DNA of 64,000 nt from Deltaproteobacteria bacterium (GTDB lineage Bacteria; Desulfobacterota; Desulfomonilia; Desulfomonilales; Desulfomonilaceae), in assembly GCA_021777225.1 (NCBI GenBank), contig JAJYDQ010000002.1, forward strand, positions 1 to 64,000, given 5' to 3'. Positions within the stretch are counted from its first letter, which is position 1; each line of letters starts with the position of its first letter. Both the position numbers and the translations under genes were made by a program. Below the pieces are notes generated by a model. The model did no database searches. It was not told the DNA's origin and saw only the letters and a list, made by a program, of their open reading frames with translations. Below are positions 22,807-26,914 of this stretch, in pieces.

Positions 22807-23589
22807 TTATTTACCAGATGAATCGATCCTTCGTACTACCTGCTTTGCCGAATTCCATGCCTTCTCGAGGATGTCCAAGGTACCGGGTCGCACTTCAGTT
22901 CGAAGACCATAAATCTCGCTAAATTCCTGACTTCCCGATGCCAGTTCATGTTCGGTAGCCACTGCCGTTGGCAGGAGCAAGCTTCTTTGGTAGCTTGCCA
23001 TCAGCCTCTTCATCATTTTGATGCCGTATCTTTCCGCTGTGCGTCCTTCATGGAGCAAAGTTTTCCAGTGACGCGAGAACCCGGAAGTAATGAACATTGT
23101 CCCGGCTACTCTACACTGTTCCTCGTAATAATTCTCACGGCCCCCAATTGTTAGGCCTATGCAATCATCAACCGGATGGTCTCCGTCCATTGGAAGGATT
23201 ACCGGAACCACGGAAGCTGGCAATAATTCCTCGTAGTCTTTTAAAGCGTTTCCACACAAACCGTAACCGAGCAATATGGTGTCCACATACGGCTCCATCG
23301 CTATTGCCGCTTGTCTAACTCCATTCCGTAAGTCCGGTATTACACTGTGAAGCCCCACCTTGATGACTCGAACAATTACTTCCAGTCCATCTGAAGATGT
23401 GGGCGCATGTTCAGCCGCTGACGCCAATGATTTTGGTCTGATAGTGGTCTTTAGCTCCAGGGTTTTGCTAAATTCCTGCGAATATTCATCCCCAATGATA
23501 CCAATCATCGAGATTTCGGGGTCATTGGCAAGAAGATGCGCGAATTCCCGTTCCAAAATTTGACAAGTAATAATGCCCAATACAGCCAT
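22807..23589 (-). CDS. DUF1638 family protein
   Basis: The 260-residue soluble protein begins MAVLGIITCQILEREFAHLL and carries the DUF1638 hallmarks: the early Cys, then VDTILLGYGLCGN and a His-rich later part (GDHPVDDCIGLTIGG). DUF1638 proteins occur mainly in anaerobes, often near corrinoid methyltransferases; their biochemical role is not established. No corrinoid gene is adjacent here. The start is supported by AGGAATAG upstream of the ATG. Confidence 0.8.
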   Translation of the reverse strand: MAVLGIITCQILEREFAHLLANDPEISMIGIIGDEYSQEFSKTLELKTTIRPKSLASAAEHAPTSSDGLEVIVRVIKVGLHSVIPDLRNGVRQAAIAMEPYVDTILLGYGLCGNALKDYEELLPASVVPVILPMDGDHPVDDCIGLTIGGRENYYEEQCRVAGTMFITSGFSRHWKTLLHEGRTAERYGIKMMKRLMASYQRSLLLPTAVATEHELASGSQEFSEIYGLRTEVRPGTLDILEKAWNSAKQVVRRIDSSGK

Positions 23590-23796: not shown

Positions 23797-24036
23797 ATGA
23801 ATCAATTTGACACCATATTTTCTCCCCAGTCAGTAGCGGTTGTGATTACTTTCACAACCCCGGGGAAAGTGGGTCACGATATTATTCTAAACATACTCCA
23901 GGGCGATTATAAAGGAACTCTATACCCGGTGAACCCAAGGGCGAAGTCTGTAAGGTCCGTCAGGGCCTATCCTTCCATTTCTAAACTTCCCGAACCAGTC
24001 GATTTGGCAATCATTGATCTTACTGCACGTCAATAG
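23797..24036 (+). pseudogene. N-terminal stump of an ADP-forming acyl-CoA synthetase (CoA-binding domain)
   Basis: Residues 1-79 match the start of the CoA-binding domain of ADP-forming acetate/acyl-CoA ligases: FSPQSVAVV, then TPGKVGHDIILNIL, YPVNPRAKSV and PVDLAIIDL. A TAG at 24034 ends it where the family continues for at least 380 residues. The following bases show no continuation in any frame, so this is a 3'-deleted relic. The peptide might be made, but would lack most of the nucleotide-binding fold. Confidence 0.75.
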
Positions 24037-24259: not shown

Positions 24260-24640
24260 GTGATAAAAATCAAGCGGATTTATGACGAGCCGTCCGATGA
24301 CGATGGCTACCGGGCCCTTGTAGACAGGCTTTGGCCACGAGGCGTATCGAAAGAGAAAGCCCAAATTGACACGTGGTTAAAAGACGCCGGTCCAAGTGAC
24401 GAGTTGAGAAAGTGGTTCAATCATGACCCTGAAAAATGGTTCGATTTTAAAGAAAGATATTTTGCTGAGTTGGAACAACAGCGTGACACACTGGAACCTT
24501 TAATTGAAAATATGGCAAAGGATATAACCCTTCTTTATAGCGCCAAAGACCAGCAATACAATAACGCTGTAGCGTTAAAAGAATTCTTGGAAAAACTAAC
24601 AGAGGCCAAGGGTGAAACAGATTCCCTACCTTGCCGGTAA
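24260..24640 (+). CDS. DUF488 family protein (YeaO-like)
   Basis: This 126-residue protein shows the whole DUF488 pattern: [49 protein letters not shown] and a C-terminal [20 protein letters not shown]. The GTG start is preceded by AGGAAAACCT. The biochemical role of the family is uncertain. The gene ends 38 bases before the Sec-containing fusion gene and is probably co-transcribed with it, so a shared stress role is possible. Confidence 0.85.
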
Positions 24641-24678
24641 CGTTGAATTTTGGTTCTACGAATAAGGAGATTCCCGTC

Positions 24679-25788
24679 ATGAAGCTTGATTTTACCAACC
24701 AAGACAGGAAAAAGATCGAAGAGGGCATTCGAGGAAAATACTCCAGGGTAGCAGTGAATCCTGAAGGACTCTTCAGCTATCCAACGGGACGCGCCGGGCT
24801 GGAAGCCTTAAAATATGATCCAGACATTATTGAAACTTTACCCGAATCAGTGCTGGATTCGTTCTGTGGTGTAGGGAATCCATTCTCCGTCGGTGAAATC
24901 CACGAGGGAGAAAGTATCCTGGATGTTGGTTGTGGCGCTGGTGTGGACACAATGGTCGCCGCTATTATGGTTGGTCCCTCGGGTAAGGTAGTTGGAATAG
25001 ATATGAGTTCCGACATGGTAGAGCGAGCCAGACAGAACCTAAGCCGGACGAATCTCAAAAACGTTTCATTTCTGGAATCTTCTGGCGAAGATTTAACCTT
25101 GCCTGATGAAGACTTTGATGTTGTGATCTCGAGCGGGGTTTTTAACCTGATACCCGACAAACTCAAGGCATTGAAGGAAGTTTTTCGAGTAATGAAGCCA
25201 GGCGGGCGGCTCATGATGGCTGACCAGGTTCTCACAGGCCATCTTTCGGGGGATGTCAAAGCACGAATTGACACTTGGGCCGGGTGAATGGGCGGAGCCA
25301 TACCAGGAAAGGATTTCCTGGAGATGACAAAAGAGGCTGGTTTTAGGGATGTGGAAATAGTATCCGAGACAGGGTTTAATAGCTCTCCAGTTACCAAGGG
25401 CATGTTGTTTAAAGCTGTGAAACCTGCTGTGTCAATCTCTGAACGGGGGATAAACTCAATGGCTGCCCTAGATAAGTACAAGGAATTCTTTGATGATGCT
25501 TATGCCTCAGGAGCACTTGATCGCAAGACAAAGCACCTCATTGCCCTGGGGGCCTCACTGGCTGCTGGATGTGACCCTTGAACCCGCTATTGCCTTGCAG
25601 TTGCAAGGCGCCTTGAGGCAACAGAAGAAGAACTTCAGGAAGTAATGGCCGTGGCCATGACGGTAGGGGCCACAAAGATACAAATTTTGCAGCAAAACTG
25701 CCTGACAGCGGTAGGTGGAGAGGGACATCATGAAGAAAAGGCGTCTCAGCCGGAAGCGCCCGCTGAAGAGCAAGCCTGCAGCTCTTGA
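24679..25788 (+). CDS. Double-Sec selenoprotein: ArsM-like methyltransferase fused to AhpD/CMD domain
   Basis: ATG at 24679 follows AAGGAG by 9 bases. The frame is interrupted by UGA at codons 203 (25285-25287) and 301 (25579-25581) and ends with UGA at 25786. Read through, it gives 369 residues. Residues 1-240 are a SAM-dependent methyltransferase of the ArsM-like family: FCGVGNPFSVG (Cys63), LDVGCGAGVDT, FRVMKPGGRLMMADQVL, then DTWAG-Sec-xGGAIPGKDF where relatives have WxGCxxGA. Residues about 255-345 are an AhpD/carboxymuconolactone-decarboxylase-like domain with redox motif CDP-Sec-TRYC (Cys298, Sec301, Cys305) where AhpD has CxxC. Both codons replace a Cys expected to bind metal(loid) or do redox chemistry, and each has a SECIS-like hairpin. 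Roles are inferred: methylation of a soft metal(loid) or related substrate, coupled to a thiol/selenol redox site. No selABCD gene is in the window. Confidence 0.8.
25285..25287 (+). other. In-frame UGA, predicted selenocysteine 203
   Basis: The codon lies between DTWAG and MGGAIPGKDF. The C-terminal sequence after it continues the methyltransferase family without a frameshift or gap, and the position is that of the conserved Cys in WxGCxxGA of ArsM-like enzymes. A chance nonsense mutation would not be expected to hit that codon. Confidence 0.75.
25303..25321 (+). promoter_or_regulatory. Bacterial SECIS-like hairpin 1
   Basis: CCAGGAA and TTCCTGG form a perfect 7-bp stem around loop AGGAT. 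The loop starts 22 bases after the UGA at 25285-25287 and has G at its second base. This fits the general bacterial SECIS description (apical loop 16-37 bases downstream, G in the first two loop bases). The hairpin lies in coding sequence, as it must in bacteria. Confidence 0.65.
25579..25581 (+). other. In-frame UGA, predicted selenocysteine 301
   Basis: The UGA sits in GCDP-UGA-TRYC, replacing the second Cys of the AhpD CxxC site. The downstream frame keeps the AhpD-like helical pattern (LEATEEELQEVMAVAMTVGAT). AhpD-like proteins with Sec are a known selenoprotein type. Confidence 0.78.
25592..25609 (+). promoter_or_regulatory. Bacterial SECIS-like hairpin 2
   Basis: GCCTTGC and GCAAGGC form a perfect 7-bp stem around loop AGTT, which carries GU. 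The loop starts 17 bases after the UGA at 25579-25581, inside the accepted range. The geometry matches the first hairpin. Confidence 0.68.
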
Positions 25789-25798
25789 GGTACACAGG

Positions 25799-25817
25799 GC
25801 CGCTCTGGATGAGCGGC
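25799..25817 (+). terminator. Hairpin after the fusion gene: terminator, or third SECIS-like stem
   Basis: GCCGCTC and GAGCGGC form a 7-bp stem around loop TGGAT, starting 11 bases after the final UGA. There is no T-run after it. As a terminator it would be rho-independent only in a weak sense. Its loop also starts 17 bases after the last UGA with G at the second position, the same geometry as the two SECIS-like hairpins. Confidence 0.45.
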
Positions 25818-25844: not shown

Positions 25845-26729
25845 CTACGCGCTGGTCGATAGAAATTCAATCGCGTTACGCTCCAAAATTTTCTCAAGAA
25901 AATCGTCCCGAAGTTGAAGCTTTCCCAACTGCCGGATTTCTGTGTCCCATGCGTAAGGAATATTTGGAAAATCTGTTCCAAACATGACCCGATCCGATCG
26001 GAGTTCCGTCAATTTCGGAACTTTGAAACCTGGCACGTAATCCACCAAAACCATTGCCGTATCGACCCACAAGTTATCGTAGCCTTCCAATAATCGTTTA
26101 TACTGATCGAATTCATCAGCCCCAAGGTGTGGGACACAAATTTTCAGACTCGGATAGTCCTTCAGAACGCGTTCCAGTTTGTCGGCCTTGCAGGTTTCGT
26201 ATGGATCTCGTTGATAAGGAAAACCGTGGTTTTTTGGTTCTCTGCCCACATGCATGATCAGAGGCTTGCTATAGTTAACGCACGATTCATATATTTCATG
26301 CATTACGGGGTCATCCATAGCGAAATACTGAACGTGAGCATGTAGCTTTACTCCGGCGAGTCCCAATTCAAACGCTTCCTTCAAAATATCTACGGCATTT
26401 TTTTCACCAGGAAAGACAGTGGCCGTTCCGGTTAGCTTAGGATGGTCTCGGCACAATCCGGCCATATAGGTATTCAATTGACGGGCTATACCCGGTTTGT
26501 GAGCGTAATGCAGTCCTAGAATACGATCTACTCCTCTGGATGTAAGGAATTCCATTATTTGAGGTGAGGTTAGTTTGTACCGGATAGGCCATGCGAACTG
26601 ATCAAACCACCGCCAAATGGCTTGAAATACTCCATCAGGGAAGAGATGCACATGCGCGTCTATGACGATTGAAAAACTATCCGGCAGTCTCTTGTCTTCA
26701 TAGTCATCTAACAGAAGCCAATTATTCAT
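25845..26729 (-). CDS. Amidohydrolase_2 family metal-dependent hydrolase or decarboxylase
   Basis: ATG at 26729 is preceded by AAGGAG at good spacing; an in-frame TTG further upstream (26771) is less likely. The 294-residue TIM-barrel protein has the metal motif DAHVHLFPDG near residue 25, the strand GVKLHAHVQYFA, IMHVGREPKNHG, VPHLGADEFDQY and the late Asp motif MFGTDFPNIPYAWD. This is the ACMS-decarboxylase/uronate-isomerase-like branch. The substrate is unknown. It is convergent with the selenoprotein gene, 56 bases apart. Confidence 0.85.
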   Translation of the reverse strand: MNNWLLLDDYEDKRLPDSFSIVIDAHVHLFPDGVFQAIWRWFDQFAWPIRYKLTSPQIMEFLTSRGVDRILGLHYAHKPGIARQLNTYMAGLCRDHPKLTGTATVFPGEKNAVDILKEAFELGLAGVKLHAHVQYFAMDDPVMHEIYESCVNYSKPLIMHVGREPKNHGFPYQRDPYETCKADKLERVLKDYPSLKICVPHLGADEFDQYKRLLEGYDNLWVDTAMVLVDYVPGFKVPKLTELRSDRVMFGTDFPNIPYAWDTEIRQLGKLQLRDDFLEKILERNAIEFLSTSA

Positions 26730-26914
26730 GTATCTCCTTATTCCATAATGTACGGCTTGCGGCCATGACAAAACAATAATTTCAATTGACCATGCTTTAA
26801 CTCTTCTCAGGGATGCGATTCATCGAAACTTAGGCAAGAATATATTAGCACTGAGGCTTCACAAGGACTACAATTCGCTCAGATATTAACCGTAAAATTG
26901 ACTGGAGGAGCGTC

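Follow-up and report, generated by a model that had tools for sequence, protein, structure and literature searches.

A three-selenocysteine methyltransferase–AhpD fusion of the NF041537 family with a glycine at an arsenic-ligand position

The 64,000-nucleotide stretch of DNA analysed here (the window) carries a complete gene that is almost certainly a three-selenocysteine (Sec) member of the NF041537 family, named "arsenite methyltransferase/AhpD domain selenoprotein" (ArsM_AhpD_UU), and offers a clear and complete example of a rare type of enzyme that has been listed only recently. The methyltransferase clade to which it belongs has glycine in place of one of the cysteines that bind arsenic in the known enzymes, a feature that appears to be new here, in that no earlier report of it was found and the passages on the family in the review cited below do not mention the lost ligand. 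The best overall explanation, held with slightly better than even confidence, is a three-Sec NF041537 fusion that combines a two-ligand substrate site with an in-chain selenol/thiol relay.

Gene model and family membership

By translation of the sequence, a single frame runs from ATG 24679 through three UGA codons to a final UGA stop at 25810-25812, and the gene is organised as follows:

24663..24678, + strand: putative ribosome-binding site region, AAGGAG just 5' of ATG 24679 (read from the sequence)
24679..25812, + strand: full-length gene of the fusion selenoprotein, encoding 377 aa with Sec residues 203, 301 and 370 (from translation and the alignment of homologues; NF041537 score 604.9 bits vs a cut-off of 510)
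24898..25338, + strand: core of the SAM-methyltransferase domain, residues 74-220 (Pfam Methyltransf_31, 5.5e-35 for the protein)
25285..25287, + strand: UGA 1, Sec203, in the context WAGUMGGAIPG, at the position of CmArsM Cys224 (translation, alignment with CmArsM, motif table)
25471..25671, + strand: core of the AhpD/CMD redox domain, residues 265-331, with the CDPU motif (Pfam CMD, 2.4e-15)
25579..25581, + strand: UGA 2, Sec301 in CxxU (CDPU), with Cys in the G381 and G428 homologues (homologue alignment)
25786..25788, + strand: UGA 3, Sec370, last residue of the CSSU motif in the C-terminal tail (UGA in 9/9 fusion genomes, a few codons before the true stop)

The original prediction had described a Sec-containing fusion of methyltransferase and AhpD in one frame, and this is borne out, as the frame from ATG 24679 passes through the UGA codons at 203 and 301 and holds both Pfam domains, joined by a short linker according to the Pfam boundaries. 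Conversely, its two-Sec chain of 369 residues ending at 25788 was wrong: UGA 25786-25788 encodes Sec370, followed by GTQGRSG and the final stop, and this third UGA has a covarying hairpin with a GG loop behind it and a terminal RSG in common with three relatives. Moreover, the PF02627 (CMD) match reaches 56.7 bits against a cut-off of 23, with CxxU present as CDPU, and a PDB sequence search returned the arsenic methyltransferases 5eg5, 4kw7 and 4fr0 (about 2e-27) as the nearest solved relatives of the methyltransferase domain. A single-sequence AlphaFold model of the fusion, with a mean pLDDT of 43.8, was too poor to use. The same genome encodes a tRNA-Sec (68.4 bits, over the cut-off) and SelB (402 bits against a cut-off of 242).

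The window protein and the NF041537 model share the same two domains in the same order and the same two Sec sites, residues 1-343 aligning on positions 1-344 of the 345 in the model, while the tail with Sec370 lies outside it. In-frame UGA codons are found at both family motifs, UxxG being U203-M-G-G and CxxU being C298-x-x-U301. In its passages on the family, a 2026 review (PMC13188914) gives NF041537 three Sec and the motifs UxxG and CxxU, with credit to Haft & Tolstoy 2025 (mSystems 10:e0141724), and this count per chain agrees with the window protein, whose third UGA at 370 is accompanied by a conserved hairpin. The fusion had been put forward as an undescribed enzyme; NF041537 names exactly this architecture. 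The fusion had thus been recorded before, in those passages even with its number of Sec, and the window gene is an added member. The expectation that automated annotation would see broken pieces is likewise not supported, since NCBI has an exception-type model for the fusion.

Several related families delimit this assignment. NF047649 (methyltransferase/UXPK-star) and NF041536 (ArsM_DUF2284_UU) belong to the same methyltransferase clade and likewise combine Sec203 with a tail that carries Sec and a hairpin; however, both lack the AhpD domain, and the window protein falls below their cut-offs (325.5 vs 460 and 389.4 vs 575, respectively). The AhpD/tail part aligns with MduS (NF045649), residues 260-362 on MduS 231-333, although the whole protein is far under the cut-off of that model (122.9 vs 380). 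The canonical ArsM proteins (NF008823; CmArsM 4fr0/4kw7) have the fold, the SAM motifs and the active-site loop position 224 in common with the window protein, which nonetheless remains below the NF008823 cut-off (198 vs 263 bits).

Conservation of the UGA codons and their hairpins

An NF041537 profile search over about 700 genomes of the same phylum retrieved the fusion in nine of them (G000, that of the window, and G007, G010, G011, G179, G143, G328, G381 and G428); the G011 copy is cut by a contig end, and the G381 and G428 coding sequences are identical. Homologues thus exist fused and not only as two separate genes, and the same frame and UGA codons recur across seven genera and four families. 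Specifically, UGA is found at position 203 in 9/9 fusion genomes and in the tail in 9/9, where it precedes the true stop by 2-9 codons. The search for Sec and Cys variants proposed in the original prediction found Sec203 together with Sec301 in seven genomes and with a natural Cys301 in the other two (G381, G428). A related-locus search in the genome contigs returned a single match, marginal and partial.

Selection remains purifying beyond each of the internal UGA codons. As synonymous sites are saturated in several pairs, only unsaturated dN/dS values are given: among measurable pairs within the taxonomic family to which the genome of the window belongs, these are about 0.10-0.32 between UGA 1 and UGA 2 and about 0.04-0.17 after UGA 2, so that the ratio near 1 after the first UGA, named in the original prediction as a sign against it, is not what was found. 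The closest pair (G000-G007) gives 0.08 before U203, 0.27 from U203 to residue 254 and, within AhpD, 0.18 before and 0.17 after U301; G007-G011 gives 0.04 after U301, and the distant pair G143-G179 gives 0.56 after the same codon. The 7 codons past UGA 3 are too few for dN/dS. In the tail (residues 346-369) dN is about 0.25-1.2, and because its sequence evolves fast only the tail Sec and its hairpin are clearly kept.

A SECIS-like hairpin follows each of the three UGA codons, in line with the claim that each of the two Sec codons then recognised has its own:

25303..25321, + strand: SECIS-like hairpin after UGA 1, CCAGGAAA-GGA-TTTCCTGG, loop centre 27 nt past the UGA (same place in 34/37 relatives)
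25592..25609, + strand: SECIS-like hairpin after UGA 2, GCCTTGC-AGTT-GCAAGGC
25799..25817, + strand: SECIS-like hairpin after UGA 3, GCCGCTC-TGGAT-GAGCGGC, containing the final stop codon (stem covaries among relatives)

Because no Rfam family exceeds its threshold in the window, the position and covariation of the hairpins serve as the evidence. The loop centre lies 27 nt past UGA 1 in 34 of the 37 clade members and 22 nt past it in the other three; past the tail UGA, the distance is 22-23 nt in all fusions (nine genomes), 22-25 nt in the UXPK-star relatives and 27 nt in the DUF2284 relatives, and most loops contain GG. The three stems of the window score about 20, whereas the median is 10.4 in a control set of 18 open frames of the window that end in TGA, a set that includes the UGA codons of the fusion gene itself. 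The tail stem has two-sided changes at 6/6 pairs and a covariation score of 0.812 vs 0.293 after shuffling (13 distinct core sequences); the 100% pairing in these cores comes by selection, as they were picked as hairpins, and the evidence for the tail hairpin is its sequence variation and its fixed distance.

That the protein contains only two Sec, UGA 3 being a real stop with a transcription terminator behind it, is hardly credible. Hairpins near gene ends are common and the tail past UGA 3 is merely 2-9 residues long, but no T-run follows this hairpin and a terminator scan found nothing there, on which grounds the terminator reading was rejected. Moreover, the 22-23 nt spacing, constant in the nine fusion genomes, falls within the span seen for the other Sec hairpins, the CxxU around UGA 3 is kept in five of these genomes, and G179 and G328 end after the tail Sec at TAG/TAA instead. 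The UXPK-star relatives have the same tail Sec, and the count of three in the review's passages on the family points the same way. The residues RSG after UGA 3 are common to four genomes, while the DNA past the final stop is just 12-19/42 identical. In the two homologues with Cys at 301 (L041 and L062, from G381 and G428), the AhpD motif reads CEPC yet is still followed by the hairpin, reflecting either a recent loss of Sec or a coding constraint.

Genomic neighbourhood and the Tso link

Immediately upstream of the fusion lies one gene that the original prediction took as probably part of the same unit:

24260..24640, + strand: DUF488 gene of the inactive N3i subclade, 38 bases ahead of the fusion (Pfam; neighbour only)

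The gene is present as described, but its membership of the unit is not supported, as a tblastn search of the relatives' neighbourhoods found no DUF488 near other fusion or clade members, and it was rejected as an operon partner. The window fusion is flanked by a DUF1638 gene (22807-23589) and an amidohydrolase gene (25845-26771), whose relatives in G007 adjoin each other about 5 kb downstream of the fusion gene, indicating that the locus has been rearranged. Between the DUF1638 and DUF488 genes, a 79-aa CoA_binding_2 fragment that ends at TAG (23797-24036) looks like the broken start of a gene of the CoA-binding/acyl-CoA synthetase type; it has no match in the relatives' fusion or clade loci.

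The fusions of G007 and G179 lie near a thioredoxin reductase gene (over the cut-off) and an MtaA/CmuA-like methyltransferase gene. Around the G007 fusion there are also genes for CobW and a corrinoid protein, as well as a partial TsoA (below the cut-off). The G179 fusion has an ArsR-type regulator nearby and, both scoring under their cut-offs, a TsoA-like gene and a thioredoxin-like protein related to the HUIPC selenoprotein. In G143, a heavy-metal P-type ATPase is encoded about 1 kb downstream of the fusion.

No Tso (three-selenoprotein operon) or thioredoxin reductase gene was found beside the window copy, and the only TsoA match of its genome is on contig C23, which is not the contig of the window. 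The same contig holds a paralogue (L080, 1288-2058) that consists of the methyltransferase alone, with one Sec and the ending ISEL, and no AhpD is encoded on it; this paralogue lies 2-3 kb from TsoA and from the ArsR/SmtB metalloregulator TsoR, both over their cut-offs. Across 395 genomes from the phylum, TsoA is present in 13/21 genomes with a strong clade match vs 44/395 overall (p=7.5e-9) and in 6/6 genomes with the fusion (p=1.4e-6), p values that overstate the link because both depend on the Sec machinery and the genomes are related. Physical proximity is better evidence for the Tso link: a clade gene lies near TsoA-type genes in five genomes (the G000 paralogue, G007, G179, G269 and G005).

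The substrate site and the proposed function

The three arsenic-ligand positions were compared across the fetched loci, between 35 aligned clade members and 8 canonical ArsM proteins, and two codons of the window gene stand out:

24865..24867, + strand: codon of Cys63 (FCGVGNPF), two residues before the position of CmArsM Cys72 (35/35 clade members; alignment with CmArsM)
25135..25137, + strand: codon of Gly153 (SSGVFNL), at the position of the As-ligand Cys174 of CmArsM (Gly in 35/35 clade members vs Cys in 8/8 canonical ArsM)

The three-cysteine set that binds As(III) in CmArsM (Cys72, Cys174 and Cys224) is not found in the window protein, which has Val65, Gly153 and Sec203 at these positions, the first being Val or Ile across the clade. 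The clade motifs are (F/Y)CGVGNP, S(N/S)G(V/A)xNL and UxGGA, whereas canonical ArsM proteins of the same class mostly have GLGCGNP, SNCVINLSP and C-or-U xAGA. The 35-member alignment was chosen by requiring Sec at 203; the motif table allowed Cys there and none occurs in the clade, and its one odd row, L054, is a mis-hit that also has Sec at 203. The clade methyltransferase is found with AhpD, with DUF2284, with a UXPK tail or alone, always with Sec203. In L022, L032 and L037, Sec occupies the 224 position of canonical three-ligand ArsM proteins that are distinct from the clade of the window protein.

In CmArsM, neither C174A nor C224A is active on iAs or MMA, and C72A is inactive on iAs only (PMC3877260). 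Gly in place of Cys174 thus deprives the clade of a ligand without which the known enzyme performs neither step, and the name "arsenite methyltransferase" becomes doubtful. Judged from the alignment, arsenite would be a less likely substrate, soft-metal(loid) chemistry not being argued against, and a site with one Cys and one Sec as its two ligands would be suited to MAs(III), Hg(II) or a chalcogen. The missing ligand makes the substrate assignment of a named family testable.

The fusion probably carries out soft metal(loid)/redox chemistry, while the detoxification role put forward in the original prediction stays hypothetical. The methyltransferase would bind a soft substrate atom (candidates are MAs(III), Hg(II) and selenium or tellurium species) through two ligands, Cys63 and Sec203, and not through three cysteines, and would methylate it from SAM. 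The AhpD CxxU pair and the flexible Sec tail (CSSU) may then form a selenol/thiol relay within the same chain, one that thioredoxin reductase would recharge and that would hold Sec203/Cys63 in the reduced state or free the product by reduction. In thioredoxin reductase itself, the C-terminal GCUG arm places a Sec near the C-terminus, in a flexible tail beside the redox domain; the placement in the window tail is analogous, without homology, and serves as an analogy only. In AhpD, the proton relay is a His that follows the second Cys of CxxC by four residues; the window motif CDPUTRYC has Cys305 at this position (Ser in G381), and, the His being replaced, classical AhpD peroxidase chemistry may not apply. 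The fusion probably works with the Tso system and with corrinoid methyl-transfer genes. Drawn from the domain content, this mechanism, in which two-ligand methylation at Cys63/Sec203 is served by a relay of the AhpD CxxU and the tail Sec, is a serious candidate that falls somewhat short of even confidence.

Three other functions were weighed against this mechanism. A true arsenite methyltransferase, as the NCBIfam family name has it, would methylate As(III) with Cys63 or a tail Cys/Sec replacing the missing ligand and with AhpD as a built-in reductant; the closest solved structures are arsenic methyltransferases, canonical ArsM proteins of the same class may also have Sec at 224 (L022, L032, L037) and an ArsR-type regulator lies near related genes, but the Gly at the Cys174 position in every clade member, set against the dead C174A variant of CmArsM (PMC3877260), makes this reading rather unlikely. 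Still less probable is that the three Sec sites form a device for sequestering or handing over a metal such as Hg or Cd, and not a redox relay, with methylation being secondary. The tail motifs CxxU and GGxU resemble ligand arms, a Pro/Ala-rich insert holds as many as three tail Sec in some relatives, TsoR is a metalloregulator and G143 has the heavy-metal ATPase nearby; AhpD CxxC/CxxU domains are, however, known as redox domains, and the neighbour that recurs, in G007 and G179, is a thioredoxin reductase. The sharing of the AhpD/tail part with MduS, a different methyltransferase selenoprotein, would fit an AhpD part that does the work (peroxide or selenide/thiol redox) beside a vestigial or regulatory methyltransferase, a very improbable arrangement given that the clade has the methyltransferase as its conserved core, always with Sec203 and with varied partners or alone, and that dN/dS before U203 is about 0.08 in G000-G007.

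Extended to the whole clade, the two-ligand reading leads to a more tentative proposal, namely that these ArsM-like selenoproteins may not be arsenite methyltransferases at all and may combine an obligate Cys63/Sec203 site for another soft substrate with interchangeable Sec arms (AhpD CxxU, CxxU/GGxU tails, and up to four Sec in the DUF2284 relatives) that would serve the Tso system as an in-chain redox/metal relay. Should both the Sec arms and the two-ligand Cys/Sec site prove real, the uncharacterised Tso system would tie together SAM methylation, selenol redox chemistry and the transfer of methyl groups by corrinoids.

Lastly, three loci encode DUF2284 fusions of the same clade (NF041536; L044:1501-3048 and L045:1501-3030, both over the cut-off, and L059). 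In these, a Pro/Ala-rich stretch inserted ahead of the DUF2284 C-terminus holds up to three UGA codons, and each of these codons has a hairpin centred 27 nt downstream. These relatives would have up to four Sec per chain, vs two in the passages of the review (PMC13188914) that list them, and L059 has Cys in the third repeat.
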